From Amphiura filiformis (lineage: Eukaryota; Echinodermata; Ophiuroidea; Amphilepidida; Amphiuridae), in contig NC_092635.1 of assembly GCF_039555335.1 (NCBI RefSeq), forward strand, positions 67,173,558 through 67,237,557: a DNA stretch of 64,000 bases, in the 5' to 3' direction. The position numbers were made by a program, and so were the translations under genes. Positions 18 to 37,440 of the stretch are shown piece by piece; the stretch's first letter is position 1; every line of letters starts with the position of its first letter. Below the pieces are notes generated by a model. The model did no database searches. It was given only the letters and a program-made list of their open reading frames with translations, and was not told where the DNA came from.

Positions 18-583
18 CTAATACCTATATGGTATCGTTGACTTTGATTGCTTTTGTTTTGCTCTTGCTGTGATTTTGTTGCGGATGAAGTCCTTTATAT
101 TTCGCCAATCTCTTGATTTCAGGTCACTTTCCAGTTTCTTGCATTGCTCTATCTCTCGTTTCCCTGGCACGACACCTGTGACAATGTTCTGATGAAAATG
201 GCTATTAACAGCCTCCTTTTCACAGATGGTCCATGTCTTCTTCTTTACTGCAGATTTCCCTGTCTTCTTTCTTCCACACTTTGTTCCTTCAGGTGATTTT
301 CCTGTCTTCTTTCTTCCACACTTTGTTCCTTCAGGTGATTTCCCTGTCTTCTTTCTTCCACACTTTGTTCCTTCAGGTGATTTCCCTGTCTTCTTTCTTC
401 CACACTTTGTTCCTTCAGGTGATTTCCCTGTCTTCTTTCTTCCACACTTTGTTCCTTCAGGTGATTTCCCTGTCTTCTTTCTTCCACACTTTGTTCCTTC
501 AGGTGATTTCCCTGTCTTCTTTCTTCCACATTTTGTTGCTCTAGAAGATTTACCTGTCCTGCTCTTTCCTCCAGAGGATTCAC
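18..583 (-). CDS. SET/tyrosine-recombinase gene, last exon: basic repeats and C-terminal module
   Basis: Final exon of the large minus-strand gene. The acceptor is a T-rich tract ending in CAG just above position 583, and the exon enters in phase 1, matching the donor of the exon at 2673-2774 (G|GT gives Gly). It encodes 188 residues and ends at TAG (18-20). After a Ser/Gly/Lys-rich start come about seven copies of a 14-residue basic repeat (KSPEGTKCGRKKTG). A non-repetitive C-terminal module of about 65 residues follows, with the pattern W..CEKEAV..HF...I, VPGKREIEQC, then RDWRNIKDFIRNKI. That W/HF/PGK/C/W spacing looks like a conserved domain that I recall from uncharacterised animal proteins carrying the same recombinase-like domain; its function is unknown to me. 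The frame is intact throughout the exon. The 3'UTR lies outside the window. Confidence 0.75.
251..540 (-). repeat. Coding 42-bp tandem repeat (basic 14-aa unit)
   Basis: About seven head-to-tail copies of a 42-bp unit, nearly identical, differing mainly by single bases (TTTCC versus TTTTC). 42 is a multiple of three, so copy-number change keeps the frame. The minus strand reads KSPEGTKCGRKKTG: strongly basic, one Cys per unit. The plus-strand open frames over the same bases are shadows of the repeat. Confidence 0.9.
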
Positions 584-736
584 CTGAGGTGAAAAAAAAA
601 ACAATACTTATAATCAAGGTTTTGAAAAAGCTCCCAAACTGATTTAGCAATTTTAGATTTTCCATGTTTGTATTAGGCCTACATCATTTTTAACTCAAAG
701 AAAACAAAAGAGTTGTCATTGACAGTGAATATGTTG

Positions 737-1253
737 ACTGGGACTGTGGTACTACAGGCTGATTTAAAAAAAAGGTAAATTCATGTTTGTGGTGATTTTG
801 TATGAAATCTAGAAGGAATCCGCTGTAAATGAAAACATCATTTAAAAGAGCAGATTCGGAAACTTCTAAATTAAAAAAGAATTGTATTTTTATTTGCTCA
901 TACTACCCATTTTGTGTAGCTGCACATGGTTTCACCTACCATGCACATATACCACACAACTTAATTTTGCATTTGAATATCACGCCATAATAGTCCATTC
1001 ACTACAATGACTACTTGCATGGGAAGTGAAACCATGTGCAGCTACAAAAAAGGGTGGTTTTATTCAAATGAGTGTAATTCGGGATTGGTATAAGCAAACA
1101 CAACATTTGTTTTTAAATTTAGAAGTTGAGCATCTAGCATCTAATCTTTTCAATGATATTTTCATTTGCAGTGGATTCCTTCTAGATTTCTTGCAAAAGC
1201 ACCACAAAGATGAATTTATTTCATTCTGAATCAGCCTGCAGGACTATTACTGG
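737..1253. mobile_element. Foldback (MITE-like) element in intron
   Basis: Two imperfect inverted arms of about 200 bp. The left arm has GAAATCTAGAAGGAATCCGC and the right arm reads its reverse complement near 1180. The centre carries TAGCTGCACATGGTTTCAC (916-934) and its inverse (1029-1046). Outer ends read CTGGGACTGTGGTACTACAG and the inverse of CCAGTAATAGTCCTGCAG. No coding capacity and no clear target-site duplication. The short plus-strand ORF at 1026-1229 lies inside the arm and is not a gene. Confidence 0.7.
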
Positions 1254-1439
1254 AAAGTGTCTGCATGATCCATATCACCTTTGTTCCATAACCATTAGGG
1301 TATAGTACATTTTTTGATTTCGCTATAGCCCCTGAATCATATGTGTTTTCGTACTCACTCAGGTAACATTGTGCATGAATTTTGTAACAATTTTATTATC
1401 CACTCATTTTTGTGTCTAAAATGGCCAAAATGAGGTTTC

Positions 1440-2097
1440 TTAAAGGATCTAAAATGAGCGTTTATTGCGTTTCGACAGTATTTTTTGTGGGACATGAGAG
1501 CACCTCAGACCTATCGAATTGCATTCTGAATACGAAGCATGTCTTTCTGATACCAAATAATTTTCATTTTTGAAAATCACAATATAATACAAATTTTATG
1601 ACAAATTATAAAAATTTGATATTTTTCAAATTTTTGATATATAACAGTCCTCGAAGTAAATTATATAAATCTAATGATATACTCTTAAAGTGTATGAAGC
1701 AGGGAGAAAAAGCCGACGGTCAATTGAAAATTTTGACATTTAATATTGAAAATATGGAATTTGTTTAAAAAAAAGAACTAATTTTTTTAGGTGGTGTTTT
1801 GGGAAAAAAAATCCATATCTTCAATAATTTAAAGGTCAAAATTTTCAATTGATCGTCGGCTTTTCATCCCACCTACATACACTTTAAGTATAAATCATCA
1901 GATTTATAAAGTTTACTTCAAGTACTGGTAAATATCAAAATATCAATTTTAATGATTTGCCATAAAATGTGTATTAAATTGCAAATTTCAAAAAATCAGA
2001 ATGACATTCTTCGTATTCAGAATGCAATTCGATATGTCTGATGTGCTCTAATGTCCCAAAATAAATACTGTCCAAACGTTCATACCCCAGCCCTTAA
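1440..2097. mobile_element. TTAA-flanked foldback MITE, copy 1 (family also at 8564-9157)
   Basis: The element begins TTAA-AGGATCTAAAATGAGC and ends with the inverse of TTAA-GGGCTGGGGTATGAAC. Nearly the whole length is palindromic: CGACAGTATTTTTTGTGGGA and CGAATTGCATTCTGAATACG on the left recur inverted near 2000-2070, and a central pair around AGCCGACGGTCAATTGAAAA (1712) is mirrored near 1840. TTAA at both ends fits piggyBac- or Kolobok-type insertion. It has no transposase. Confidence 0.85.
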
Positions 2098-2672
2098 TCT
2101 TTCTATCCTTGTCTATCCTCATCCCCATAGGCTTTATATATGTAAAATAAAAAAGGCCCATAAAATTGAATTGATTTTGGTTTGGATAAAAAATTCACAC
2201 AAATGCTTTTTGAGTGATTACAAACATAATTAAATACTTTTCATATGTCGGCTATGTGGATTTTTAAAGTATTACTTGTACAGCTTAAATATAGGGTCAT
2301 TTCACTGTAAAATGTCCATCTGAAACAAAAGGTGCCACGCCTCTTAATATAACACTCACAGAATGCCAGCACAATGGCAGATGAAATTCAATGCCAGTGA
2401 ATGTTATGTTCTCAGAGTAAGTCACCATATCATTTCCAATAGAGATAAAACATTATTTTCAAAACAGTGGTGACCTTGCTATACCAGCATGAAATATTCG
2501 GCTCCCACCCTAAAAGGTCTACGAGGCTGATGACATCAACTCTCACTTACATCTATTTTGGCCAATTGCTTTTGCCAAACAACTAAATACACTGGCCCCA
2601 TTATCAAAAGAAGTAACATCAATGGAAGACAAAGAGAAATTATCTTTAGATATCACTATCGTCTACTCTTAC

Positions 2673-2774
2673 CAGAATTGGTGTTGGTGGCTCTTTGATC
2701 CTTGACATCATCAGCGTAATCAGTATCAGTGTCTTCATCATCATCAGATGAATCATTATCTAGCTCTGGAACAT
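2673..2774 (-). CDS. SET/tyrosine-recombinase gene, short acidic exon
   Basis: A 102-bp exon with acceptor ATAATTGCAG above 2774 and donor GTAAGA below 2673. It is phase 1 at both ends, matching its neighbours. It encodes about 34 residues: DVPELDNDSSDDDEDTD, then DYADDVKDQRATNTNS. The very acidic stretch links the recombinase-like domain to the basic last exon. The frame is intact. The longer open frame that extends upstream of the acceptor is intron read-through and not coding. Confidence 0.7.
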
Positions 2775-3531
2775 CTGCAATTATACAGACCAAGTGTTTA
2801 GATATGCAGTGGCTTACACTAATATGAAATGAAATACGGAAAAACAAATTAATTATTACATGTTTGCTTTTACCTTAAGCCCCTGATTAGAGATATATGA
2901 ACATTTGGCAGGACAAATTACCATGGAGTTGTGAAACAGCAAGAACCTTGAAACTGTTGAGATATCAATCCATTTCAATAGGCAATATATAACCACCTAT
3001 CTCCTTTTCAGCTCCAATTGGGGCACCAAGGTCATACCGCATTCTGTGTTAATATTGGGGGATGTCAAGAAGTTTTTGGTGGTTCTAATTCACCAAGTGT
3101 ACACCACCAATGGTCAAAATTTGAATATAAATGTTTTCTTTATATGGTAAGTTTGGACAATAAATCATGTTGGGTAATGCCTTATTGACATTTTATTGAA
3201 CCCACAGTAATAGGCATCTGGGTCATCATCCATACAATTAGAGGTTAATGAATGCATATTTTGCCCATGAAAACGATCAACTTTATATACCCCGAGGTCC
3301 AAAGCAAATTAAATCTTCAGATTCTTCACAGTGCCCCCCCAATTTGATGCAAAGTTATTAACTTCATTCATAACATACTTTGCAATTTTTATCAATCTAC
3401 AGCATGTTTCTATTGTAAAATTAACTTAAAATTTAGTATTTTGCACGATAGCGTACGTTTCAATGCTGTATTTCATATAGGCTGTTGGACAATACTAATT
3501 GTACTGAATTTTGTTCACTTTCAAATCTCAC
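2775..3531 (-). other. Intron
   Basis: Bounded by donor GTGAGA below 3532 and the acceptor above 2774. AT-rich, with a C-run at 3334-3340. I see no gene, RNA or mobile element in it. Confidence 0.65.
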
Positions 3532-4592
3532 CTTCATTCTCTTCTATTTGTATATCAGCTAAGCCCTTCCCGTCGATAGCATCAACGTCACCATTTTCCA
3601 TTGCCAATAGGACCTTTGATATTCTTGCTACCTGGAGTGTTTCACTAGGGAGTCTATAATACTCTCGGTGAGTCTTGATATCGTGACCCATGAAGGTTGC
3701 AAGTAGATCTAGCTCGTTATTCTCAAGAGACATCACCTGGGATACCACAGCAAGTTGCTTTCGAAGCTTGGTTGACCTCAAAAGCTGTGGATTCTTTGCC
3801 CCACATGCTTCTCCATGTACTCGCAAACAATCAGTACCTCTCCTGTAGCTCAGGCTTTCATTGGCAAAGAAGTAGGGATTATCATTATGTACCCCAGCAG
3901 CCTTTCTATACTTCATCAACTTATCCAACCTATCCTTCATTGAATTTGTCAGCAGCATTGGCACAGTTTTCTCCATCTTCCCAACAATCTCCACCCTCCA
4001 CAGGACCACTAGGAGCTTCTGCTCCAGTGGTGATAAGGCCTTTTTGAAGAGGGCATCATCTGTCCCTTCAGCCCTCTTGACCTTCTTATAATCCACAACC
4101 TTCATCTTCGACACCTCTCCCTGTCTCTTCCTATTAAATACTATTAGATGTGTCAAGCAAGTTTCATTCAGTTGCTTCCATGCTCCCTTGCTCTCGTATT
4201 TCTCCAGTGCAACTTCGGACTTCTGAGACTCATTCTTGACATACTGTAACAGTGCTACTATATCCTCTGTTACTGGTAGCAACTTTGGATTGTTCCTCTT
4301 CTTTTCTGATAGTGTGCGATGAGCATGTGTTGATATATCTTCCTCCCACTTCATGTCTTTGAGCTCAACAAATGCGGAACATCGTTGCTCCAATTCTACA
4401 TCTCTTGGATCTGCCATCAGTGCATTGCCTTTGAGAATGTTGGCTGTTATTTTTAGACTGTGGCCTACTTTCAGTGCTAGACTTGGGATGCCATACAATT
4501 TTGTAACATGGTCAAACCCACACAATTCCATTGTTGCTGATATAACCTCTTTAAATTTGGTGGGGTCGATAAGTGTGGTTAAGCTGGCATCT
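3532..4592 (-). other. Tyrosine-recombinase-like catalytic domain (within the large exon)
   Basis: This is the 336-residue open stretch beginning MELCGFDHVT plus about 20 residues before it in frame. An N-terminal helical part (about residues 1-125) resembles a core-binding region. Candidate catalytic positions are Arg136 in NRKRQGEVSKMKV (box I), Lys185 or Lys188 in GKMEKTVPMLL (beta-hairpin Lys before VP), Arg257 in TKLRKQLA (box II H-x-x-R, but the His position is Thr), His283 in FMGHDI, and a Tyr pair at 291/292 in HREYYRLP (nucleophile). The order R...K...R...GH...Y is the tyrosine-recombinase order. Thr in place of the box II His is a deviation also tolerated in some families. Activity is not established. 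It could be a Crypton-like or domesticated recombinase. Confidence 0.75.
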
Positions 4593-7551
4593 TTTTGCGC
4601 CTGTCACTTCTCTGTATTTGATTATTAGCCTAGCTAATTCCCTTAGTCTACCTCTAACATAATTATCCTGTTCGATATTGTACCCATGGCGAGCTGCTAG
4701 CTTTGCTGCAAACTTTAGAATCAGCTTATCCGATTTTATAAGTCTTGAAATGTCATTTTCTTTCATTCCCGCCAATATCCTGTGGACCTCTGGACTAGCA
4801 CCCTTTGGCGCAGGTAACAGTAGGTTACCTTCCTTGACACGATACCGTCGTTTTTTTGCTTCAGGTTCATCTATATCTTTTTTTGTCTCTAGTGGACACC
4901 TGTGTTTCCACATTGTTGTTTTAGGTAAATACCCAAGGCATGTGGGGCAAGGTTTAAAGTCACTTGGTTCATGGTTCCCGCTTCCCCTATATATTGGTAT
5001 TATTTCTCCTTGTCCACTTTCAATTACCTCATAGTTATGAATATGATTGCCCTGATTTCTTATCTTTGTAAGCAGCTTGTATTTCTTTTTTATCTGTGGC
5101 TGCATCCCACCTCCGCAACCTCTATCTCATTGCTGTGCTTGGTTTTCAAGTGCTCTGGTAGTTTTTTCATTCCTTTATTGCAGTATTTACAGTATGCAAC
5201 TTTGTCATATGTTCTCTTACCATCAACATTGTTTGTTTGCATAATTTGAATGGTTGGAACAACATCAGATACATCAGGTGCATCAGAATCTGATTCATCT
5301 ATAGAACTAGGAGCTGGCTTTTTACTGGTTCCAACATCATCAGATGCATCAGAATCTGATTCTTCTATAGGCTTAGGAGCTGGCTTTTTACTGGTTCCAA
5401 CATCATCAGATGCATCAGAATCTGATTCATCTATAGAACTAGGAGCTGGCTTTTTACTGGTTCCAACATCATCAGGTGCATCATCTTCTACAGGCTTAGG
5501 AGCTGGCTTTTTACTGGTTCCAACATCATCAGATGCATTGGAATCTGATTCTTCTATAGGACTAGGAGCTGGCTTTTTACTGGTTCCAACATCATCAGGT
5601 GCATCAGAATCTGATTCTTCTATAGAACTAGGAGCTGGCTTTTTACTGGTTCCAACATCATCAGATGCATCAGAATCCGATTCTTCCAGAGGACTAGGAG
5701 CTGGCTTTTCACTTGTTCCATCATCAGATGCATCAGAATCTGATTCTTCTATAGGACTAGGAGCCGGCTCTTTACTGGTTCCATTATCATCAGATGCATC
5801 AGAATCTGATTCTTCTACAGGACTAAGAACTGTCTTTTTACTGGTTTCAACATCAGGTGCATCGGAATCTGATTCTTCTATAGAACTAGGAGCTGGCTTT
5901 TTACTGGTTCCAACATCATCAGATGCATCGGAATCTGATTCTTCTACAGGACTAGGAGCTGGCTTTTTACTGGTTTCAACATCAGGTGCATCGGAATCTG
6001 ATTCTTCTATAGAACTAGGAGCTGGCTTTTTACTGGTTCCAACATCATCAGATGCATCAGAATCTGATTCTTCTATAGGACTAGGAGGCGGCTTTTTACT
6101 GGTTCCAACATCATCAGATGCATTGAAATCTGATTCTTCTATAGGACTAGGAGCTGGCCTTTTGGTTCCAACATCAGGTGCATCGGAATCTGATTCTTCT
6201 AGAGGACTAGGACCTGGCTTTTTACTGGTTCCAACATCATCAGATGCATTGAAATCTGATTCTTCTAGAGGACTAGGAGCTGGCTTTTTACTGGCTCCAA
6301 CATCAGGTGCATCGGAAGCTGATTCTTCTATAGGACTAGGAGCTGGCTTTTTACTGGTTCCAACATCATCAGATGCATTGAAATCTGATTCTTCTAGAGG
6401 ACTAGGAGCTGGCTTTTTACTGGCTCCAACATCAGGTGCATCGGAAGCTGATGCTTCTATAGGACTAGGAGCTGGCTTTTTACTTGTTCCAACATCATCA
6501 GATGAATCAGAATTTGATACTTCTATAGAGGCCTCTGTAGGAGCGGTTCTCTTCCAACATATGGAATAATGTCAGATCTACCAGAGTCTGATTCTTCATC
6601 AGATGGTGGTATGAAGTCATCATCTGATTCTTCTACAGGACTAAGAACTGTCTTTTTACTGGTTTCAACATCAGGTGCATCGGAATCTGATTCTTCTATA
6701 GAACTAGGAGCTGGCTTTTTACTGGTTCCAACATCATCAGATGCATCGGAATCTGATTCTTCTACAGGACTAGGAGCTGGCTTTTTACTGGTTTCAACAT
6801 CAGGTGCATCGGAATCTGATTCTTCTATAGAACTAGGAGCTGGCTTTTTACTGGTTCCAACATCATCAGATGCATCAGAATCTGATTCTTCTATAGGACT
6901 AGGAGGCTGCTTTTTACTGGTTCCAACATCATCAGATGCATTGAAATCTGATTCTTCTATAGGACTAGGAGCTGGCTTTTTGGTTCCAACATCAGGTGCA
7001 TCGGAATCTGATTCTTCTAGAGGACTAGGAGCTGGCTTTTTACTGATTCCAACATCATCAGATGCATTGAAATCTGATTCTTCTAGAGGACTAGGAGCTG
7101 GCTTTTTACTGGCTCCAACATCAGGTGCATCGGAAGCTGATTCTTCTATAGGACTAGGAGCTGGCTTTTTACTGGTTCCAACATCATCAGATGCATTGAA
7201 ATCTGATTCTTCTAGAGGACTAGGAGCTGGCTTTTTACTGGCTCCAACATCAGGTGCATCGGAATCTGATGCTTCTATAGGACTAGGAGCTGGCTTTTTA
7301 CTTGTTCCAACATCATCAGATGAATCAGAATTTGATACTTCTATAGAGGCCTCTGTAGGAGCGGTTCTCTTTCCAACATATGGAATAATGTCAGATCTAC
7401 CAGAGTCTGATTCTTCATCAGATGGTGGTATGAAGTCATCATCATCCCTTACGATGTCATCATCATCCCTTAAGACGTCATTACTTCTTGCATTTTCCGT
7501 GTCGTTTACTTCATTATTGTGGGTCTCTTCACTCTGGGCCACTTCAGCTAA
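3532..7551 (-). CDS. SET/tyrosine-recombinase gene, large exon (acidic repeats, zinc fingers, recombinase-like domain)
   Basis: A 4-kb exon. The acceptor is TTTTCCAG above 7551 (phase 0, matching the SET exon ending at 11441) and the donor is GTGAGA below 3532 (phase 1). In order it encodes an acidic leader (LAEVAQSEETHNN..., runs of Asp), PPSDEESDSGRSDIIPYVG, about 30 acidic/basic ~22-aa repeats, a C-X2-C-X9-H-X4-H finger (CKYC...H....H, about 5125-5195), a CPTC...HRC module (about 4900-4950) and a tyrosine-recombinase-like domain. Three single-base disruptions break the frame: a missing base in a T run near 6552 (visible against the duplicate copy at 7371), one near 5105 that an extra G in a GGG run would repair, and an extra A in an A5 run near 4592. 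Each lies in a homopolymer and coding resumes at once, so this is a real coding exon that is either newly decayed or misassembled. Confidence 0.8.
5260..7345 (-). repeat. Coding tandem repeat, ~66-bp unit (about 30 copies)
   Basis: Units of 66 bp, with 60-63-bp variants, encode SDDVGTSKKPAPSPIEESD-type repeats in which acidic Ser/Asp clusters alternate with a basic Lys/Pro/Ala segment. This layout resembles the low-complexity alternation of Nopp140/treacle-type nuclear proteins, and the S-D-x-D/E stretches are plausible casein kinase 2 sites (inference). Variants alternate SDASDDVGTS with SDAPDVGAS. Long plus-strand open frames over 5250-7618 are antisense shadows that stay open because all units are multiples of three. 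Confidence 0.9.
5800..7440 (-). repeat. 819-bp in-frame tandem duplication inside the repeat exon
   Basis: The block ending at the GATCTACCAGAGTCTGATTC stretch occurs twice, at about 6577 and 7396. Distances between matching points are 818 bp (5821 to 6639) and 819 bp (6556 to 7375). The one-base difference is the missing T near 6552. The true period of 819 bp is 273 codons, so the duplication was in frame. The two copies look nearly identical, so it is recent. Confidence 0.8.
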
Positions 7552-8563
7552 CTGGAAAACAAATATAAATATAGATGTCGTTTTTAAAACTAGAATTTTG
7601 CTTTCTCTGCTTTCATGATTCTCTGCCTGCACGCCTCCCTATATAAACAGAATATACAAACGTGGGCCACCTATGGGGGAAACATGATGAGGTGGTCTGG
7701 CTATGAGTACCACTTCAATTTGAACATCTGACTTAAGGTCATGTGATCCGAGATCACTTATGAACTGCGTATTTCACTGCTTAATATATATATATTAACA
7801 CATACAATGAAAAATACTGTATAGCAGGACATTTTGGCAGGATGTAGGGGTGCATTTTCAGGCAGCCGTGGGTCTAAATAGTAGAAAGACAATCTGAACA
7901 AATATGTAAGTGAGGTTTTTAATGCAAAATTGGCAATGACAAATAAAATTGCATGGGTAATACTTGTTCACCACTTGCGACATACCAAATACCGGCATTA
8001 TATTCTGTCAAAGGTTAATCTTTTTTATTATCAGCCAATCAGAACAGCTATGCAAATGAGGTCATTAATACACAAATTTGGCAGCTTGTGTAATACTTGT
8101 TTCCACCACTACCAACAAGTTTTGCAGAAATAAAAAATCTGGCATTGTGTTCTGGCAAAGGTTTTACCCTTTAAGATTACATCTTCTCTGATCCATCCCA
8201 GCATACACTGTAACAACCAAAGGCTAAGTGGTCCTTCCACCCTGGTGGCCCACAATGACTGAATGCAGAAATTTTATTTGGAATCCTTGTGGAGTTATTA
8301 CATGAGGGGGATGTCAAATTCAAACAGGATAAAAAAAGTTTTTGCTTGTCCTTGGCTATTTATTTATTTATTAGATCTTATTTTACATGGGGAAATCCAT
8401 TCAGTGTAAACACTGTTTTCCATGGGTGCCCAGGGTCAAACAAAGTACATCAAAATGGTTAACAATACAAATAATAAATATCATATATTAAAATACATTC
8501 AATTTACAACTCTGAAATTAAACGACGTTTAGGTACAGATAGCAAATATGTATTTAAAAAGCA

Positions 8564-9157
8564 TTAAGGGATGGGGTATGAGCGTTTCGACATTATTTTT
8601 TTTGGGTTTTTTTTGCACTTCATACATATCGAATTGCATTCTGAATATGAAGAATGTCCTTCTGATATCAAATAATTTAATTTTTTGAAATTTGCAATAA
8701 AATACACATTTTATGGCAAATAATTAAAAATATTTTTCATATTAATCAGTCCTCGAAGTAAACTTTATAATTCTGATGATATGTACATATCGAAGATATG
8801 GATTTTTTCCCCAAAAAACTTAGGTGTTTTTTGGGAAAAAATGTATATCTTCCATATGAAAGGTCAAAATTTTCAATTTATCATGGGCTTTTCCTCCCAG
8901 CTACATACACTTTAAGTACATATCATTAGATTGATAAATTTTACTTCGAGGACTGTTATATATCAAAATTTTTAAAAATATCAAATTTTGATAATTTGTC
9001 ATGAAATTTGTATTATATCCCGAATTTCAAAAAATCTAAATTATTTGATATCAGAAGGCCATTCTTCGTATTCAGAATGTAATTGGATACATTTGATGTG
9101 CTAGCTCCCATGTCCCACAAAAAATACTGTCGTAAATGCTCATTCCAGAGCCCTTAA
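8564..9157. mobile_element. TTAA-flanked foldback MITE, copy 2
   Basis: Same family as 1440-2097. It begins TTAA-GGGATGGGGTATGAGC and ends with the inverse of TTAA-GGGCTCTGGAATGAGC. Shared internal words are CGAATTGCATTCTGAATATG, GTCCTCGAAGTAAACTT and GGTCAAAATTTTCAATT with their inverse partners. About 594 bp, no ORF of note, TTAA at each end. Confidence 0.85.
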
Positions 9158-9247
9158 GATACAATTCTTTTAAAAGTTCCAAGCTTGGCTGGAAGTGGTG
9201 CTTTTGCAGCAGTTGGAAGGTTGTTGAATGCTAAAGCCCCCTATAAC

Positions 9248-9392
9248 CAGGGACAGGCGATTTATGCGGAAAAAATAGCAAATTTATGCGGAATTGCCGG
9301 AACTCTTTTCAGTGCAAATCATGTATACCTGCCCATAGGAAAAAAAAGCAAATTGCGCGGAAAAAAAGTTCCGCGCAAATCGCCTGTCCCTG
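9248..9392. mobile_element. Short hAT-type MITE with 8-bp target duplication
   Basis: A 145-bp element with terminal inverted repeats CAGGGACAGGCGATTT..GCGGA. Both sides carry the identical 8 bp CCTATAAC (9240-9247 and 9393-9400). CAGGG-type termini with an 8-bp duplication are the hAT superfamily signature. Non-coding. Confidence 0.88.
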
Positions 9393-9589
9393 CCTATAAC
9401 TAAATTTTCTACTCAGATGGGTCAATATTCGGTAAGGTGCCTATTTGATGGTTTGGAAAATAGAAATTTCAAAATGATTTTTCTATTATTTTTTTACAGA
9501 TTAAGAATGATAGGTGTCTCCAGTGTAGTAAAAAAGTGTTTGGCTCAATCTTTATTAGCAACTTGATGTATTTTTGGCTTTTCTGCAGC

Positions 9590-9915
9590 TAATGTTATCT
9601 CCGTCACCACCGTCATCATCTCCGTCAGAATTGCACTGAAGTTCAACTGATACCGAAAATTTGTCGCACATTGAACATTTGTTTTTTTACCTACAGAGGA
9701 AAGGAGTATAACCAAGATTATGCAACATATCATTACATTTCCATTTGACCAGTTTTTAAGTTCAAAGCAGGACGTTATCTGTAGAGTGACGGAGATGATG
9801 TCCATGAATGGAAATGCTGCTGTATCATCTCCGTCAGGTGACGGAAATGATTCTCCCATAGTAAAATCATCTCTGAACGTCATTTCCGTCACAAAATTGT
9901 GACGGATATTACGTG
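9590..9915. repeat. Patch of TGACGGA / TCCGTCA words in both orientations
   Basis: The heptamer TCCGTCA or its inverse occurs repeatedly (for example near 9600, 9623, 9788, 9832, 9842, 9884 and 9900), in pairs such as GACGGAGATGATG and its inverse. This suggests a degenerate foldback element with subterminal repeats. A minus-strand open frame of 115 codons overlaps it, but nothing about it looks like a known protein. Confidence 0.45.
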
Positions 9916-10895
9916 ATGGTATATTACGAAATGAACAAACTTACGACCCTAGTAGTAAAACTATAACATACACATGGTCAATAAAGGAGGTGAATACAAA
10001 TACACTTACAACTGTTGTAACGCTGAAAAAAGTAGAATAAATAATGCGAACATTTTAGTGATCAGAAGCATTCGGAGATGACGATTAATAAAGGTACCCA
10101 CCTGTGTGAGTGAAGATATGGTTATAGTTTTGATGAATTTATTGCGCCAACATGAGGGCAAAATGTCTAAATGAATTGACTGCAGATTGACTCATGCTCT
10201 TGGGGTCAAATATATGACCTTACAAAATTAATCTTTTTCTCCAGGCTCTTCTAAATTTTCGTGACGGTAGATGACGCAAAATTCGGGACAGGAAATTTTA
10301 GACATAAAGGGTGAAATTATTTTTATTCCGTGCTATGAAAGATGTATTACAATAACTTTTTCAACAATATACAATAAATAATTTGTAATTCCTGTGTTTT
10401 TACGATGCTGATGAAGTTATCCACTAAAAGCTATCAGCATCAAAAGTTTTGATAAACCCAATCGGGACATGGGGTTTTGGGGTTTGACACCCTGTACAAG
10501 CAAGTTTCTCGAAAACAAGAAGTTCTTTTAAAATTTTGGTGTTTTAAAAGGAACGTCAATAAACAACTGCTAAAAAAACAATTTGAAATCCTGTTTCGTA
10601 TTATATTTATGACTCCTGAAAGTGGCGGGACTGCAAATTGGCACCTTACGAAGAATGACCCAGATGTGTTGCGGCAGAGAGATAGGACCAAATTTCCCTG
10701 AGAAACAGTTCTTGTCCAGTAACTATGAATGTCAGAAACCGTACTGAAGATATTGCTATCAGGGCATTCATTTGTTTTATTTTTTCATTTGCATAAGCCA
10801 GATAATTTTATAAAATGCTGAAATTAAGGTATTATATTCTTGTGCAATATACAAGAAACATCAATTTACATTCAAACTGTTTCAACATTATGGTA

Positions 10896-11290
10896 TTAAA
10901 GGGACAATCAGTGATCTCTTCATCCAAACTTCACTTTTGTGACTTGTCATTTTTTTGTATATTTAGAAAAAGGTCACATAATACTAACTTGCATTTACAA
11001 ACTCAGGAACAGTATATTTGTGAGAAAAACCTTTGAAGTTAGAATTGATTTTTTGCCAGTGAAACATTCAATTGAGCAATGTGCATGGTAGTCAGATTCA
11101 GTACCCATGCATGGCATTATTCTGCTGTAGGGTAGCAGCGAAAGCTAGGTGAACAATTCACATAATCAGACCCTGCTTGCAATTGACACAGCAAATATAG
11201 CCTACTTTGATTAAAATTAGCTTATTGGACTGTAATTGTTCACATTTTGAGACGGATAACTATTGCTATAATCACTGATTGTCCCTTTAA
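10896..11290. mobile_element. TTAA-flanked MITE (AGGGACAATCAGTGAT termini)
   Basis: Begins TTAA-AGGGACAATCAGTGAT and ends with the exact inverse, ATCACTGATTGTCCCT-TTAA, about 395 bp apart. Non-coding. TTAA on both sides fits a piggyBac/Kolobok-type target. The ORF at 10815-11036 overlaps its edge and is not a gene. Confidence 0.82.
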
Positions 11291-11440
11291 CGTACACATG
11301 ATTTGAAATTAGTCAAGGATTTATATAAAACCAGTTGCATTATCACTCCTATGTGCTCTAACCCTGTGCCCTCACACTTAATGTCTGTGAGTACAATTCC
11401 TGACTAAAAAAAAGTTATCCACTATATACTATATACTTAC

Positions 11441-11627
11441 CCTCCAAGGAGCAGACTCATTCCCATAATCATAACGAATTTCCTCATCAGCAGATATTGT
11501 TTTTGTAGCGTATATACATAAGTGAGGGCTGCCATCTACATGAATCAACTTCACACGACTGTTGCATAATGCTCCTATACTATCATTAGCGTATCGCCCA
11601 AGACATGTTGAACTAGAAGCATCAATA
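11441..11627 (-). CDS. SET-domain exon (C-terminal half, KMT5A-like)
   Basis: A 187-bp exon with no ATG, so it is invisible to ATG-based ORF calling. The acceptor is AAATTTCAG above 11627 (phase 2 in) and the donor is GGAGG|GTAAGT below 11441 (phase 0 out). With the preceding exon it reads ...CIDASSSTCLGRYANDS (SET NHS-box equivalent, with Asp where most SET enzymes have His), then VKLIHVDGSPHLCIYATKTI and EEIRYDYGNESAPWR (SET-C YDYG motif with the candidate catalytic Tyr). The order GR.xND/HS...PHL.I.A...I...EE..YDYG is the SET lysine-methyltransferase C-half, closest in my recognition to KMT5A (H4K20 monomethylase). The frame is intact. Confidence 0.85.
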
Positions 11628-14600
11628 CTGAAATTTATTTAAAAAATGATAAAAATTAGTTTCACCTCATATTTTGATGATTTCTGTACTCTGCAATGCA
11701 CCACCCTATGTGGTATAGCTTTAACCCAAATTTGATTATTTCTTTTCAAATATCTAGCCACAATCAGTAAATGGTTGGACCATTGTTGTGTGATCCGGTA
11801 GGAATCCATAGGATTCCGTTTGGAATAGCGGTTTAATTTGGTACTTGTAGAAGCTTTTATTTTCCTGGTGCGTTAACTGTGTTCACATCTAGACACCAAT
11901 TAATTTTGAACTTGAACGGTAACCGCGTTTTACCGCATTTTAATGAAATATACGCCGAAAAATAGAGGCCCGGCAAAGTGCTTTCAAATAGCCCAAATCT
12001 GAAATTATCCTGTCCAAATACACTTACTTTGCGCCAAATCTGAAATTATCCTGTCCAAATACACTTACAAGGTGTCCCATAAAAGGTTACATGTAGAAAA
12101 TGAACCGCATTTTGTGATGGTACAACAAAACATAAAACAATGTCATTTTTTTTTTTATTATTTATTCATCCGTCTTGTAACTGTTTGCTAAGTTTCAATT
12201 CCGTATCTTAAAAGCAACTTAACTTATGAGCGCAAGATGACAGGGGTGTCAAGAGTGGCTAACCATCAACATATCGCAAAATGAAGGTTGAACACCCGCA
12301 CACCTTTTTTCAGATTTTTTTCTGTATTAATTTTTATGTTTCTCTTATTTTTTTTTGCTGTATCTTATTGCACAAAAGAAACATATTGAAAAATGTAATA
12401 TTGTACACTGAAAATAAATCCGTTTTTAGAGCTTCTTGACTCTTAATGGTAACAAATAAAGGAAGATGGTCATTAGAGAAGAACAAAGTTTTGATGAAAG
12501 CAGTTCTGCACGCTTATATCCCTGTCATCAACATAGTGAAATGAATAACAATCTTTTGCATTTAGGCCTTATTTGGATTTTGTTGACTTGAAATCGTTGC
12601 TGTTTGTGTTTACATTTCTGACTAAACTCTTGAAATAAAACTGAACAGGTTTTATTGTTTGTTTATTAGAATAAAATACTGCATCTGCCATGTTATGGCT
12701 AGGCCTACTCAAGTGCCCGCCAAATGCACGGTGGCTGTGACGGTGGTATAATGAACCTCGTGTTGCATTATGTCGTGTAAAGAGCATGTTCAGGAATTTG
12801 TGGAATGCGAACCAAGTACGTAGGTTGTGAACTTGACATTCACAGGGGTACTAGTAGAGGGTACATAGATTATGTCATGAAAAGGATATTTATATTTGTT
12901 AACATTAACTTAGATTGTTTTCAAAAATCTACATGTAACCTTTTTTTGGGACACCCGGTACTTTGCGCGTTGGTGCATTACCTGCATGCCGCACTTCCTT
13001 CCCATCATCCTTGTTTATATTGACATAATTCCCATCGTCCTTGTTTATATTGACATAATTATCTTTCCATCATAATTTAACGTGAATTCAACGAACGAGG
13101 TTGCGTTGTGCCCACACCTATTTCAAGTGGTTTCAAAACTGGCTGTGTTGTAGACTAGTGCTGGCTCAATAATCAGTAAAGTAAACACAATTACCACTTC
13201 ACAAGTTTATAATGTTTGCCCTGGTATTAAGGGTGCATGGTTGTATATTACGCAAACAAACAGAAAGTCTGGACAGGCGCTAGACAATCCGACTGTTAAT
13301 TGTCAATTGCTGCAATAGTTACGTAGGCCTACCCTTAAAAACATTTTATCTATTCACAAATCCCATCCCCCATAAAGAAACAAATCCAATATGACTCACC
13401 CCGTAATGATAAGGCCAAGTAAAAAATAAAACATGTTTCTCGTCTCCTCCGCTTCCTTTTTTTAGGCCACTTCAAATTATTTCTATTTTCTAAAAGTTAA
13501 GTTATAACTTTATTTATTTTTATGTCGAGGAAGCCGAGATAATTTCTATGACCTTAATAACTAAACAAAATGGTCTTGCTAGTTGCAACCTCGTTTATAT
13601 TTAGAACAATTTGGCCTACAACCTCTTTTAAGCATTATTCGTGTTCTGTCTCGTCCGATTTAAATGAATACTTGAAATGTGACAGATTTTTTACATTAAT
13701 TACCTCTACAAAATGCACGCATAGTCTATGATACAGTTGGGACTAGCCTTCATCTTTTGTAATTGTCCAAATTGCAGGCAAACGTAACCTTACCTGCATT
13801 TTTCCCTCTAATTTATTTTTCCCTTCCCTTCTTTTTGGATTTGGTGGGCGGTATTAAAGGTGCATAGCACCTGTTCGCTCCAGACATTCACTGGACTTAT
13901 ATAAAATAAATTGTTCCTGTAATCATATTGTGTAATTTTTGATGTAACTTATGTGCAATATTATATTTTTGTAATTTTGTGTCAGTGATAAAGTGTAATA
14001 AAATAAATCAACAACCCAACAAATTTAAGGCCTATATGGAGGATGGTGATCGAAGACTTGTGCGCAATATGTTTAGTAATTGTGAAAAGCACTATACATG
14101 TATATACTAGCAGTAATGTCTACTTTGTCTAGTATACAGAGGGGCCTAACAATAACATAGGCGGTTGGGAAGTGGAAGTCGGGGACACATCCCAATTTTT
14201 GGTTCAAAATTATTTTCTTTCAATTTGATTTTCCAATTTTCAGAAAAAAATGAAATGCACATACCTTTATACAATGCGCACAAAGTCGAGGTATTGTGAT
14301 CGACGCTCAAATTACAACCCACAAAAAGATATGAATAAGATTTTAAATCCATGCTTTTAGCTGCGCACAAATCCTTTTTACCATTACTGTCATCGTAAAA
14401 TCAAACTATATGATATTTCTAGCATTGGTTATTCCAATGACACAGGCGCTAGACAGACAAGCACATAGATTCAAATCACATAAAATACCACATATTAAAA
14501 AAAACACATTCGGATCACACAAGGTTCTGAACAGAAACAACACATTTAGGCCAAAACTGCAAGACATAAACCGATCAATCCAAACACACCATCCAGGATC

Positions 14601-15478
14601 ACACAAGGTTCCCTACCACCAACCCACGTGTACCGAGAACCGTGAATGCCGAGAACCGCGAAAGCCGAGAACCGCTCTAGTTTCATCATGGTTTTATCAA
14701 GTTTGTGGGAATTGCTTTTTTTTTTTTTTTTTTTATGTACATTATGTATAGCAGCGGTTCTCATACTATAGGTTGTGGCCTTTATGTTGGTTGTAACGTC
14801 TTCTAAATTGGATCGCGGGCCTTGCAACAAACAGAAATTAAATATGAAATAAAAATACATAAAAAACATAAAAAAGATAGAACATAGGCTATGTTTAGGG
14901 CTTTAAAAGGGCCCAATCCTGGAGCTTCCAGGGGCGGCCCTAAAGCAGCAAATGAACCCCATCCGCTTGTTGTTCCGCTTATGGGCACCAATATATAGGT
15001 ACACATTTGGATAGATGAACTGTGAACACATTAATAAACTTTCATAAAATTTGTGATGATAAAGTTCATGCATTAATATAGTTTTTCATGCGTTATAACT
15101 TGGACATTTTCTAGTTCATGGGTCGTGGTCATATACTTTCGATGTAAAATTTGAGTTGTGAGTGGAAAAGTTTTGGAACTGCTGATGACTAATGTATAGT
15201 TTAAAACTAAAATATTTCAAGGTCTGAAAAAATTGTTTGGTTGGCATAACATATTAAAAAATAAGGATAGGTAGGTAGGGTTTTTTTTCCTTACTTTTTA
15301 AGCTGTAAATTGTGCTTGATAAAAGGCCTTGGAACTTTTTTTCTTCTTTAAATTTAATTCAATTTTTTAATTATAATTTTTTTTGAAGTCATGGTCGGGC
15401 TTATTTCTAGGGTAAGTCGGGTTACGCCTAATCAAACAATGTTTTTTAGGCTTAACTATATCATGAGGAATAACTTAC
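11628..15478 (-). other. Intron within the SET domain
   Basis: Bounded by donor GTAAGT below 15479 and the acceptor above 11627. It contains the mariner-like element 12068-12958, a direct duplication of about 37 bp at 11992-12067 (units starting CCAAATCTGAAATTATCCTG), a 31-bp duplication at 13000-13061 (CCTTGTTTATATTGACATAA), three CCGAGAACCG words near 14635-14680 and a poly-T run at 14717-14733. The rest is AT-rich and unremarkable. Confidence 0.6.
12068..12958. mobile_element. Mariner-like non-autonomous element with TA duplication
   Basis: The termini are inverted: TA-CAAGGTGTCCCATAAAAGG on the left and the inverse of TA-CCGGGTGTCCCAAAAAAA on the right, both continuing into GGTTACATGTAGA. 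TA dinucleotides at 12066-12067 and 12959-12960 are the expected target duplication. The roughly 890-bp interior has only short open frames, none with a DDE transposase motif. A lone end of the same type (ACAGGGTGTCCCAAAAG) sits near 54172. Confidence 0.75.
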
Positions 15479-15638
15479 CAACATAGTGAGTTCCTGTATT
15501 CAAAGAAGTATATATATTCTCGCTCTCTGCTCATGATATCATAACTTGAATCACACTCTTGTTCGGTCAGGAGTGTACCCTGTACTCAACTATGAAATCT
15601 CCTGGTTCAATTTTTTTTCTTTGCAAAAAGACCATAAC
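15479..15638 (-). CDS. SET-domain exon (N-terminal half), two frame-breaking indels
   Basis: A 160-bp exon: acceptor CTTGTTACAG above 15638 (phase 1 in) and donor GTAAGT below 15479 (phase 2 out), both matching its neighbours. It reads G-YGLFAKKK (GxG motif for S-adenosylmethionine), then in the next frame IEPGDFIVEYR, then back to the first frame GTLLTEQECDSSYD, EYIYFFEYRNSLC. This is the SET order GYG.F...PGDF.VEY.G...Y.FFE....CID. The two indels, one extra A in an A8 run and one missing G in a G run, cancel each other but create a stop between them. Each lies in a homopolymer. Hence either a pseudogene lesion or sequencing error; the exon identity itself is clear. Confidence 0.8.
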
Positions 15639-15904
15639 CTGTAACAAGCAATAAATAAATGGATATATAATTTTAAAAATTTTTATACATAGAATATAAC
15701 CATAACAGTTCTAACCAGACTGATTAACTTGAATCTATATCTATAATCATTGTTATCATTATACAGATGGTGTAGCAATTATATTTTAGGTTTAGGAGCT
15801 AATCTATAGATCTATGTGCTTGATGGGCCAAACTCAGTCTTTGATGCTCACATTGGACGAAAGAGATAACAGACAACTTCCAAACAGTCTCAGCATCACC
15901 CGAT

Positions 15905-16072
15905 AATGAGGGCCAATTGTTCCATGGAATGCTACAACCAAACTGCTACACACGTACCACATATTTTTACTGTCTTTCGCTTTTCAACAAGAAGACAGGC
16001 AAAGCTCTTATATAAGCGGAAGGCACACCGGGTGATTGTTAGACACTGCACAATGAAACAATTGGCCCTCAT
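15905..16072. repeat. Short inverted repeat, ~18-bp arms
   Basis: ATGAGGGCCAATTGTTCC (15905-15922) is mirrored by GAAACAATTGGCCCTCAT (16054-16071) with one mismatch. A weaker outer pair, CATCACCCG and CGGGTGAT, lies nearby. Possibly the end of a degraded element. Confidence 0.5.
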
Positions 16073-17040
16073 GAATACGAGAATTCACAGCATACAATGC
16101 ACAGGGACTTTCACTGATGATAAATTAACCAAGACAAGCAAAGCAGAAGCAAAAGCAACTGAAGTAACCAAGACAAGCAAAGCAGAAACCAAACAAACAG
16201 CAAAGCAGAAACCAAAGCAACTAGCAACTGAAGCAACTAAGACGAGCAAAGCAGAAACCAAAGCAGAAACCAAAGCAACCAAGAAAACAGAAGCCTTCAA
16301 TAACAGAATAAACCACTAGTCCATGTAAGAATCACATATCTCTGGCGGCGAAAATCCTCTGACAGTGAAGAGTTGGCGATAATACAGCATAGACTGAGCA
16401 TGACGACTGAACCCAAAGAAGAAGAAGAAGAAATATAGTCTGTGGCAGTCTGTGGTTGCTCATTATTGAATCCTGATTTCACATGGGTTTTGAAAGCATG
16501 GGTCCTCAAGGTTGGCAGGCAATTACTATTGTTAATCCTTGCCTATCATGATGTCACATGTTACATCATCTATAGATTATAATTTAAATAGGTCTGGTCT
16601 CTGATCTTACTGGAGTTTTTGCTAAAATTTTAATTGTGTTAAAGAGAAACTGTGCCCTAATACCTAGCACACACAATTATATTCAAACTTTCGGAAATTT
16701 CAGGGACAAAATTTTTTTGTTTTTTTTGTATTTTCTCAAATTGCAAATTATTTACAGATTTTGGTGATTTTTTGGGTCATTTAAAAAAAAGAAAGGAAAA
16801 AAAGGCAGGCCAACCGACTCCTACTTGAAAAGTTTGTCTTTCAGAGAACAGGGTTTCTTTTTTTCATCGCCTAACCTACTCGGGTACACACCAACATTCA
16901 AACTGGAGATTCACCCTGCCCTTTTTCAGTTTTGCCCTCGGTGCCCCAGAACTTTGTCAACTTCAAGGTATTCTTCATCACTTGTTGGCCTTGGTGCCCT
17001 TCTTTGTCTTTTGCTCAGTGGCCTTGAAAATGGGTGCCCC

Positions 17041-18411
17041 AAAAATTAGAATTGAGCCCTGCTCAGCACACACAAACATTCAAACTTTGGAGATTCACCA
17101 TATATAACATACTCAGTACACACCAAAATTCAAACTGTGGAGATTCACCATAACATACTCAGCACACACCAATATTCAAACTGTGGAGATTCACCATAAC
17201 ATACTCAGCACACACCAATATTCAAACTGTGGAGATTTACCTTAACATACTCAACACACACCAATATTTAAACTGTGGAGATTCACCATAACATACTCAG
17301 CACACACCACCATTCAACCACCACCACCAGCACATATGCCAATATCAAACTGTGGAGATTCACCATAACATACTCAGCACAAGGCCAATATTCAAACTGT
17401 GGAGATTTACAATAACATACTCAGCACACACCAATATTCAAACTAGCGATTCACCATAAAATACTCAGCACATGCCAATATCAAACTGTGGAGATTCACC
17501 ATAACATAGTCAACACACACCAATATTCAAACTGTGGAGATTCACCATAACATACTCAGCACACACCAATATTCAAACTGTGGAGATTCACCATAACATA
17601 CTCAGCACATGCCAATATCAAACTGTGGAGATTCACCATAACATACTCAGCACACACCAATATTCAAACTGTGGAGATTAACCATAACATACTCAGTACA
17701 CACCAAAATTCAAACTGTGGAGATTCACCATAACATACTCAGCACACACCAATATTCAAACTGTGGAGATTCACCATAACATACTCAGCACACACCAATA
17801 TTCAAACTGTGGAGATTTACCTTAACATACTCAACACACACCAATATTTAAACTGTGGAGATTCACCATAACATACTGCACACACCACCATTCAACCACC
17901 ACCACCAGCACATATGCCAATATCAAACTGTGGAGATTCACCATAACATACTCAGCACAAGGCCAATATTCAAACTGTGGAGATTTACAATAACATACTC
18001 AGCACACACCAATATTCAAACTGTAGCGATTCACCATAACATACTCAGCACATGCCAATATCAAACTGTGGAGATTCACCATAACATAGTCAACACACAC
18101 CAATATTCAAACTGTGGAGATTCACCATAACATACTCAGCACACACCAATATTCAAACTGTGGAGATTCACCATAACATACTCAGCACATGCCAATATCA
18201 AACTGTGGAGATTCACCATAACATACTCAGCACACACCAATATTCAAACTGTGGAGATTAACCATAACATACTCAGCACACACCAATATTCAAACTGTGG
18301 AGATTCACCATAACATACTCGCAGCACATGCCAATATCAAACTGTGGAGATTCACCATAACATACTCAGCACACATCAATACTCAAACTGTGGAGATTCA
18401 CCATAACACCA
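17041..18411 (+). repeat. 46-bp minisatellite, array 1
   Basis: Roughly 28 units with core CTGTGGAGATTCACCATAAC followed by ATACTCAGCACACACCAAT and ATTCAAA, period about 46 bp (45 bp in units reading ATGCCAATATCAAA). The array contains a higher-order duplication of about 578 bp: the unusual CATTCAACCACCACCACCAG unit occurs at 17311 and 17889 and the surrounding unit order repeats. 46 is not a multiple of three, so the short NIQTVEIHHN-type open frames are not coding. Confidence 0.92.
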
Positions 18412-19040
18412 AATGAATACAGAAGGAATTCACAGGAAGAACAAACCTATTTGAAACAAGGACCCTGAGTCAATCATGCAAGTGCCAACCACTGTGCCAC
18501 ATGTCTGACTTGGCTGGCCAAGTTTTTTCCACATCCATAAAAGGCTTATATGGGGGACATTGTTCCATTTTCCTTCTTTTTTTAATCATTTTTGGAAGGA
18601 TTATGATACGGTTATAAATTTGCTTTGTAAATTGTTATTGTACTACAATTAAATAGATCATGGTCGCATGTGTTATTCGGATCCATAAAATAATTATGTG
18701 ATGCTATCAATCAAAATCAATTGTTTGTCAAGCAGTCTCAAATTTGAGTTTCTAGTGTCATGTGTTTAGCATTATCAGTTCATTATTTTACTGGAACCCC
18801 CCCCCCTTCCCAATTGGTTGAATGGTTCCAGAGATATGGTACATTTAGTGAAACATTGAAATATCTAAAACAAAACACTATCATTGGTTACATCTCAAAA
18901 CCAATGGCATTGACAAAGGACTCCTTTTATTTAAACACATTACATATGGAAGTGTTGTTCCCTTGCTCATTTTTTTTTCATTGCTGATACTACTTTTTGT
19001 GTAAAGTGTAAAGTATGTATTGAAATATATATATACAAAT

Positions 19041-19295
19041 ATGTGACCGTACAGCACGAATGAGCCGTAAATTCCCTAAATTGTATTCGGAGTTACAGCG
19101 TAAAATGTGTACGAATGTCGTATTCAATTTCGTTGAAGGAGTAAAGTTTAACAAACTATAACCCCGCTTCTGGGTATCGTTTGAAGTCAAATGATATACC
19201 ATTTTAAAGCTTATGGTGTATATTTGTTAAACATGAAATAAAACAAAATTGACCGGGGGAGGAATTTACGGCTCATTCGCCGTGAACGGTCACAT
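19041..19295. mobile_element. Foldback MITE with TGTGACCGT termini, complete copy
   Basis: The left end ATGTGACCGTACAGCACGAA and the right end, inverse of ATGTGACCGTTCACGGCGAA, both continue into TGAGCCGTAAATTCC. Length about 255 bp. It lies in an A/T-rich target with TA on both sides. A broken relative lies at 47636-48207. Confidence 0.78.
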
Positions 19296-19754
19296 ATACT
19301 CTATCATACAGTGTTTACTCTTTTTTACTTTAGGCTGTAAGACATTATGTTATTAACTAAGCCCACGTTTTGATAAAAAAATTATTTGTTACAGAAAGTT
19401 TTTATCAAAATATTAACATCTTACATAGGGATTCGGTTGAATTTGTGATGAATGAAAATGAAAACAACTTATTTTACATTTGATAGATTATTTTCAAAAC
19501 TGATTTAACGAATGCAGTCCTTTTTTTTTGTAATTAGCAAACAGATGTATCTTTATCATATGAAATTGACATATCTTAATTCTTTTTGTAGATATATGAA
19601 CACATTCATCTCAACTGTTTTTTCTGGGACACTTGGACCTTGGACTACAAGCAAATCCTATGATAAGCCTTTAACTTTTCTCTAAATGTTATGTTAATAA
19701 AAAGTAACACTAGTTTATTTTTACAGTCTGGATGATCGACTGTTCAATCACATT

Positions 19755-19785
19755 GACAAACAAACAAACAAACAAACAAACAAAA
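19755..19785. repeat. (CAAA)n microsatellite
   Basis: About seven uninterrupted CAAA/ACAA tetranucleotide units, just inside the intron next to the exon at 19808. Confidence 0.9.
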
Positions 19786-19807
19786 CAGATATTCACAATT
19801 CACATAC

Positions 19808-19892
19808 CTATGTAGTTGTCAATAAACATTTTGTCTATTCCTGGGGGGTCTTCCTGCAGCTTTATCCAGTCCTCAACTGTCTTCCTATTTCT
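19808..19892 (-). CDS. SET/tyrosine-recombinase gene, exon leading into SET domain
   Basis: An 85-bp exon: acceptor GTGAATTACAG above 19892 (phase 0 in) and donor CATAG|GTATGT below 19808 (phase 1 out). It encodes RNRKTVEDWIKLQED then PPGIDKMFIDNYI-G, which joins seamlessly to GYGLF of the next exon. The segment just before the GxG motif of KMT5A-like proteins has the same character. No ATG upstream within the exon, so translation must start in an earlier exon. The frame is intact. Confidence 0.72.
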
Positions 19893-20183
19893 CTGTAATT
19901 CACATTTATAGCAACATTAATTTTAGTTTTTCAATACGGTATAGTATAACTAGGCAATTGAAGTCAAAAGTAAAAAATATGCAACAGTCTGGACAAACAG
20001 AGTGTTTCCACAGAACTTCAATCTGTGTGTTGCCATGTTATACACAGCAATTCTGGGAAAATCAATGCTCCTGTGGAAACACACAAGAATCAGATTAGGA
20101 AAACAAAATATTGCCCAGAATTGGTTTATTGTATTGTACCCATCCCTAAAATAATTGCTGTGCTGTGGACATAACACACAAAT

Positions 20184-22587: not shown

Positions 22588-22740
22588 CATTTTTTGTGGT
22601 CAAAATTGCTGAAAACTGAAAAGTTAACTAATTTTTAACAAATAAACACGAAATAGGGAAATTTCATGTAGAGCCTGAATCTGGCATAAAGATGCACAAT
22701 TCTGATCTTGCAAGCTTTGCTGTAGTATGTGGGTAATGTA

Positions 22741-35164: not shown

Positions 35165-36035
35165 GTGGGGCATTTCCAGCACACACCCAGCACATACCAA
35201 CATACCCAGCACACACCAATATTCAAACTGGAGATTCACCATAACATACTCAGTATATACCAATATTCAAACTGTGGAGATTCATCATAACATATTCAGC
35301 ACACACCAATATTCAAACTGTGGAGATTCATCAATAACATACTCAGCGCACACCAATATTCAAACTGTGGAGATTCATCATAACATAGTCAGCACACACC
35401 AACATTCAAACTGTGGAGATTCACCATAACATACTCAGCACACACCAATATTCAAACTGAGGAGATTCACCATAACATTATACTTAGCACACACCAACAT
35501 TCAAACTGTCGAGATTCATCATAACATACTCAGCGCACACCAACATTCAAACTGTGGAGATTCATAATAACATACTCAGCGACACCAACATTCAAACTGT
35601 GGAGATTCACCATAATATACTCAGCACACATCAATATGCAAACTGGAGATTCACCATAACATACTCAGCACACACCAACATTCAAACTGTGGAGATTCAC
35701 CATAACATACCCAGCATACACCAACATTCAAACTGTGGAGATTCAATATAATATACTCAGCACACATCAATATTCAAACTGGAGATTCACTGTAACATAC
35801 TCAGCACACACCAACAACTGTGAAGATTCACCATAACATACTCAGCAAACACCAATATTCAAACTGTGGAGACTCACCATAACATAGTCAGCACACACCA
35901 ACATTCAAACTGTGGAGATTCAATTCAGCATACTCAGCACACACCAACATACAAACTGTGGAGATTCACCATAACATACTCAACACACACCATTAACATT
36001 CAAACTGTGGAGATTCACTATCCCACTATCGCACT
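35165..36035 (+). repeat. 46-bp minisatellite, array 2
   Basis: About 19 units of the same repeat (ACTGTGGAGATTCACCATAA, CATACTCAGCACACACCAAC). This array is enriched in CCAACATTC rather than CCAATATTC variants, and some units are shortened (ACTGGAGATTC). It borders the GC-rich region starting near 36,090. Confidence 0.9.
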
Positions 36036-36829: not shown

Positions 36830-37233
36830 AATTTATTATTTTTCAGAAATATTTAGAAAAGATTACATCATGTATTTTATGTTCATATGTTTTTTTATTC
36901 ATTAACTCATTACTTGCTTTAGTTATTTTACTGATTTATTTATTACCTGTTTATTTATTTAGTTGGTTACTTATTTATTTACTTATGTACTTATAAATTT
37001 ACTTAGTTCTTTCTTTATTTATTTAATTGTTTTTATACTTATTTATTATCTTCACTTATTTATTTACTTACTCATTTAGATATTTATTCATTTATTTATT
37101 TATTTAGTTGCTTATTTACTTACTTGGTTATTTTCTTATCTTCTTATTTTCTTGTTTATTTACTTATTTAGTTATTATTTACCTAATTATTTACTTATTT
37201 GTATAATTAGTTATATACCTATCTCTCTACTAT

Positions 37234-37284
<51 letters not shown>

Positions 37285-37440
37285 CATCTTTGGGTTATTA
37301 TTTATTTAATAACTTATTTACTTGTTTACCTATTTCCTTATTTATTTACTTACTACTTCAGTTATTTGCTTACTTATTTACTTATTTATTTACTTACATA
37401 TGTATTGTTATTTACTTATTTATTCACTCATTTACTAATA
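36830..37440. repeat. Degenerate TTTA/TTAC-rich tract
   Basis: About 600 bp of TATT/TTTA/TTAC tetranucleotides, with a pure (TTTA)n core at about 37228-37283. The 99-codon frame reading ...YLFIYLFIYLF... is the repeat translated and not a gene. Confidence 0.9.

Follow-up and report, generated by a model that had tools for sequence, protein, structure and literature searches.

A candidate gene joining a KMT5A-like SET domain to a tyrosine-recombinase-like core in Amphiura filiformis

We analysed a window of 64,000 nucleotides from Amphiura filiformis (contig NC_092635.1, positions 67,173,558 to 67,237,557; G+C content 36.4%), and describe a gene model on its minus strand in which a KMT5A-like SET domain is followed by acidic repeats, two zinc-finger-like motifs and a core that resembles tyrosine recombinases. 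All coordinates below are those of the window. The six minus-strand exons proposed in a preliminary description of this DNA lie at the coordinates given there; the five donors are all GT (GTATGT, GTAAGT, GTAAGT, GTGAGA and GTAAGA) and the six acceptors are all AG. Exon 1 (19808–19892), which is an internal and not the first exon, encodes RNRKTVEDW...IG and opens the KMT5A-like region; it has an AG acceptor without a pyrimidine-rich tract and a GT donor. Exon 2 (15479–15638), placed by the alignment to KMT5A, encodes GYGLFAKKK, IEPGDFIVEYR and GTLLTEQ...FFEYRNSLC, these three pieces being separated by two frame breaks. Exon 3 (11441–11627) carries the end of the SET domain (IDASSSTCLGRYANDS...PHL...YDYGNESAPWR) and is followed by a GTAAGT donor. 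Exon 4 (3532–7551) contains the acidic repeats, both zinc-finger-like motifs and the recombinase-like core, with three further frame breaks. Exon 5 (2673–2774), placed by its splice signals, encodes an acidic stretch behind a moderately pyrimidine-rich acceptor tract. Exon 6 (18–583) consists of seven basic repeats of 42 base pairs (bp) and a Trp-containing C-terminal segment (WTICEKEAV...IKDFIRNKI); its stop codon is at 18–20, and everything past it is truncated by the window edge. A Pfam search of exon 6 gave nothing above the cut-off. A tblastn search of the window with four protein pieces matched only the exons themselves, and no further copies were found. At least one 5′ exon is absent from the model: fewer than 30 bases upstream of the acceptor that opens exon 1 there is a TAA in its frame, and the bases between the two contain no ATG in that frame. 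The many introns mark the gene model as eukaryotic and most likely animal.

The SET domain is clearly supported by homology as KMT5A-type, and this part of the finding stands strongly beyond chance. All SET motifs quoted in the preliminary description are present when the exons are translated. A query of 146 residues, with an X inserted at both breaks of exon 2, matches the Pfam SET model over its whole length (positions 1–105 of 105; expectation value (E) 2.6e-15; 57.2 bits, cut-off 22.4). The unbroken piece of 96 residues, made up of the end of exon 2 and exon 3, matches SET by itself with E 7.2e-9. In a comparison with the PDB (threshold 0.001), 72 distinct sequences passed and the best 60 of the 72 were listed: the top 14 among these are KMT5A/SETD8, with E from 7.8e-17 to 1.1e-15, and the next relative among the matches listed is KMT2A at 7e-9. 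The KMT5A match spans query residues 3–142, and thus begins within exon 1. The exon 1/2 junction adjoins a one-residue gap of this alignment and the exon 2/3 junction lies in an ungapped stretch. The single NCBIfam match of the SET half, to an effector family that has a SET-like stretch, is far under the cut-off.

Concerning the individual motifs, GYG, PHL and YDYG are shared with KMT5A/SETD8, whereas YDYGD in that protein is YDYGN here and the cofactor motif NHS is NDS. The latter change counts against a functional enzyme: since the His of NHS is altered, methyltransferase activity cannot be assumed, and we regard it as doubtful for this sequence. In one description of human SETMAR, a protein with N223A in its NHSC motif is called methyltransferase-deficient (PMC8704517); by comparison, it is the Asn that is retained and the His that is replaced in the present sequence. 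The gene model also differs from KMT5A/SETD8 in its long C-terminal extension.

The first domains met in this extension, beyond the acidic repeats of exon 4, are the two zinc-finger-like motifs. Motif 1 (5135–5191, minus strand) has the form C-x2-C-x9-H-x4-H (CKYCNKGMKKLPEHLKTKH), and its best Pfam result is a zf-BED match below the cut-off (E 0.15). Motif 2 (4896–4949, minus strand) has the form C-x2-C-x11-H-x-C (CPTCLGYLPKTTMWKHRC), and a Pfam search of it gave no zinc-finger match.

The recombinase-like core (3524–4603, minus strand) is an open frame of 360 amino acids, weakly recognisable by its motif order and by alignment to an integrase profile. The order R..K..R..GH..Y claimed for it is present. 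By the first base of each codon, the candidate catalytic residues are an Arg at 4126, a Lys at 3979 or 3970, a second Arg at 3763 (KLRK) or 3778 (LLRS), the His of GH at 3685, and a Tyr at 3658 (H+9) or 3661 (H+8). A loose R/K/R/GH/Y pattern, which was written after the sequence had been seen, is matched by 9 of 20000 shuffles, so that the order stands modestly beyond chance. Against a profile built from 50 XerD-like integrases plus XerD, hhalign gave the core a score of 27.1 (P 0.0033). None of 300 shuffles reached this score (best 24.0) and the reversed sequence scored 12.8. Among 431 control open reading frames (ORFs), 80 score above 100; five of the other 351 reach 27.1, and the next best is at 24.8. 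These five are presumed to be further integrases because their alignments span 117–241 columns. In the realigned hhalign alignment (query residues 144–321) XerD equivalents face the first Arg, the GH and the Lys of the hairpin. The box II Arg of XerD falls on the Arg of LLRS (3778), and the XerD Tyr on 3661, which is the earlier of two adjacent Tyr. Without realignment, the best hhalign stretch covers only residues 204–278.

The likeness to recombinases might instead be a coincidence, in which case the SET domain would be followed by unrelated DNA-binding domains, and several results point that way. The HH-suite probability for the core against the integrase profile is 9.7%. HMMER with the same profile gives 6.8 bits for the hairpin region and 2.0 bits for an unrelated stretch. 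The motif reading prefers KLRK (3763) and H+9 (3658) for the second Arg and the Tyr, unlike the alignment, which leaves both residues ambiguous. The histidine of the box II HxxR is absent, its place being taken by Thr (STKLR) or Gln (QLLR) depending on the Arg chosen. Also, the 360 residues match no family in Pfam (DUF3504 included), PHROGs or NCBIfam up to E 1, and their two PDB matches, at E 0.9 and 0.99, are not meaningful. Single-sequence AlphaFold predictions of the 360 residues and of the C-terminal 233 gave no usable fold (mean predicted local distance difference test, pLDDT, 34.5 and 34.2). The shuffles and the control ORFs nevertheless speak against coincidence, both for the motif order and for the profile score, and we consider it unlikely. 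A tyrosine-recombinase-like domain, as first proposed, is weakly supported, by the profile score above controls and by the motif order; searches with hidden Markov models return the SET profile for the first three exons and no curated family for the core. On balance the recombinase likeness of the core is probable, judged by its sequence.

Nothing in searches for relatives of the core points to a recent origin in bacteria or phages. In viral contigs, back-translated peptides found two pattern stretches, neither of which was confirmed, and the DNA pattern for GHDI..HR.[FY]YR found none. In bacterial and archaeal genomes there were 43 stretches, again with none confirmed, and none was found in phages or plasmids. 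These searches are silent on animal relatives, because the collections comprise viruses, bacteria, archaea and plasmids.

That the SET exons and exon 4 belong to one fused gene is more likely than that they are separate, as far as splice signals and reading phase can indicate. Exon 3 ends in phase 0 at a GTAAGT donor and exon 4 begins in phase 0, and the exon 4 frame contains no Met upstream of 5242. A scan of intron 3 for alternative first exons considered single coding exons spliced straight to exon 4 from donors of two types: none of the six GTRAG sites qualified, and one of the four GTATGT sites did, with 9 codons. Three observations weigh against the fusion and would suit two adjacent transcription units, the first a short SET gene of KMT5A-like type that ends within intron 3, the second a gene or mobile element with the zinc fingers and the recombinase-like core. 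If exon 3 were unspliced, translation would run three codons beyond its donor to a stop (PWRVSI-stop). There are ten AATAAA/ATTAAA sites within intron 3. The Met at 5242, just ahead of zinc-finger motif 1, could initiate a shorter protein. The hexamers, however, are expected often by chance because the DNA is 64% A+T, and 16 more lie within 11441–20000; together with the phase-0 donor and acceptor and the near lack of a single coding first exon inside intron 3, this makes two units improbable. The claim of a SET–recombinase fusion in one gene has its phase-0 junction and the missing early Met of exon 4 in its favour, while shorter messages are possible and the frame is broken at five places.

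The matching reading phases that were claimed for all six exons hold only in part. Those of exons 1–3 agree with the exon lengths, because the two breaks of exon 2 cancel. Exon 4 is 4020 bases long, which is divisible by three, and its phase change 0/1 therefore arises solely from its internal breaks. The claimed phases thus concealed five breaks within exons, two in exon 2 and three in exon 4: the quoted peptides require frames 0-1-0 in exon 2 and 0-2-1-2 in exon 4. These breaks are a point against the model, as is the lack of any identified start exon; a further weakness is that the support for exons 5 and 6 consists of splice signals. No stop codon lies inside any individual frame piece. 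A short single-base run is present in the interval of every break, which is compatible with long-read consensus errors. This coincidence is a weak argument for sequencing error because such runs are common, those of at least 2 bases making up 47% and those of at least 3 bases 17% of the stretch measured (3532–5126). The gene is possibly intact in the organism and misread at five places, or possibly it was recently damaged.

Exon 4 also contains a head-to-tail duplication of 822 bp, with copy 1 at 6622–7443 and copy 2 at about 5804–6624 on the minus strand. Over the whole span (5804–7443) the copies are identical at 816 of 822 positions with one gap, and the duplication is either a real recent event or an assembly artefact. 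The repeat units of exon 4 have a ratio of non-synonymous to synonymous differences (pN/pS) of about 0.86 in both stretches examined, which is close to neutral and says little on selection; the sample is 8 and 6 units, selected by pattern from about 19.5 and 11.3 copies. A pseudogene in decay, derived from a fusion gene of this kind, would account for the five breaks together with this internal duplication, for the altered NHS motif and for the near-neutral pN/pS. It accords less well with frame pieces that lack stop codons and with splice dinucleotides that are all intact, and a single-base run, the usual site of long-read consensus error, is available for placing each break, though such runs are common. 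We give decay of this kind a low probability.

Further properties of the repeats do little to decide whether they are coding. They are open on both strands, so their openness was rejected as coding evidence. At the three variable sites within the first 33 positions of the 42-bp repeat of exon 6, every change is silent, both in the predicted frame and in one antisense frame; the silent sites favour the model with this reservation. The repeat periods in exons 4 and 6 (66, 129, 321 and 42 bp) are all multiples of three and that of the main array of intron 1, 46 bp, is not. Small intronic arrays also show multiples of three: intron 1 has periods of 39, 12 and 69 bp and intron 2 has periods of 21 and 30 bp, which makes the period a weak clue. 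Arrays of highly similar 46-bp minisatellite units lie at 17062–18408 (within intron 1), 35199–36018 and 38777–45722.

Elsewhere in the window, a plus-strand frame at 22737–23117 ends in ...VQWNDLSPNTLNITNISAFKTALSNN and looks like the end of the reverse-transcriptase frame of a non-LTR (long terminal repeat) retrotransposon. A 77-bp tandem pair lies at 46513–46670 and a long degenerate TTTA array at 36918–37424. An Rfam scan and a tRNA scan of the window gave no match each.

Taken together, we lean towards a targeted methyltransferase gene similar in plan to SETMAR, in which zinc fingers and a core derived from a recombinase accompany a KMT5A-like SET domain. In the predicted protein, a linker of acidic repeats would connect the SET domain to two zinc-finger-like motifs, which would be followed by a core derived from a tyrosine recombinase and then a basic tail. 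If human SETMAR is a guide, the core and the zinc fingers may recognise specific DNA sequences, most likely what is left of the mobile element that would have given rise to the core. Held at the bound DNA, the SET domain could then methylate a nearby lysine, either H4K20 or one of another protein. What is observed at the locus is the SET homology, the splice dinucleotides and the motif order, whereas the single transcript, the DNA binding, the methylation activity and the mobile-element origin are inferred.

SETMAR (Metnase) of anthropoid primates consists of a SET domain and the Hsmar1 mariner transposase. The present model would have the same plan, a SET methyltransferase domain upstream of a DNA-handling domain derived from a mobile element. 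The partners differ: a mariner transposase in SETMAR, and here a tyrosine-recombinase-like core with zinc-finger-like motifs, attached to a SET domain of KMT5A type. No transposase family, mariner DDE included, was found in the three of four exon 4 frame pieces scanned with Pfam, the first repeat copy being left out. In published accounts, the mariner transposase directs the SET domain of SETMAR to remnants of transposon ends (PMC6326780), and the transposase part is described as catalytically inactive (PMC8704517).

Genes derived from Cryptons, with the DUF3504 domain, likewise join a recombinase-derived domain to other domains in animal proteins. As described in one account, they include KCTD1, ZMYM2-4, QRICH1, WOC and KIAA1958, many of them transcriptional regulators, and they have lost the catalytic Tyr and the second Arg (PMC3212892). 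The core reported here has candidates for both of these residues, unlike the DUF3504 genes as described there, and the DUF3504 model of Pfam does not match it. The same account describes a Crypton tyrosine recombinase (YR) frame in an intron of bird ATF7IP, with a predictable splice to the host gene, which may keep catalytic activity and for which it gives no known transcript (PMC3212892); the host gene there is ATF7IP, as against a SET gene here. Since there are candidates for all five of R, K, R, H and Tyr, one might also think of a still-active tyrosine recombinase joined to a chromatin methyltransferase, which would be either a mobile element that brings along a chromatin modifier or a host protein in which site-specific DNA recombination and lysine methylation are coupled. 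We hold this to be quite unlikely; the candidate catalytic residues nevertheless make a direct test of coupling between recombination and chromatin marking in an animal protein conceivable.

The available part of a survey of zebrafish SET genes includes setd8a and setd8b, and the word 'recombinase' does not occur in it (PMC2200798). In the literature searched by titles and the starts of abstracts, with subscription papers and preprints outside its scope, we found no paper on a SET–recombinase fusion. As a lead only, many uncharacterised proteins of fish, lancelets and corals may have the same domain order: a KMT5A-like SET domain with an ND motif, zinc fingers, a GHDI..HR..YRLP core and a C-terminal Trp-containing segment. 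If so, the fusion would be of old date and, without bearing a name, common in databases. The studied case in which a transposase gives a methyltransferase a sequence-specific aim is SETMAR. The targeted methyltransferase proposed here, if true, would be a second case of independent origin, in which both the methyltransferase (KMT5A type) and the enzyme class of its partner (tyrosine recombinase) are different, and it would suggest that evolution has taken the route to such fusions repeatedly.

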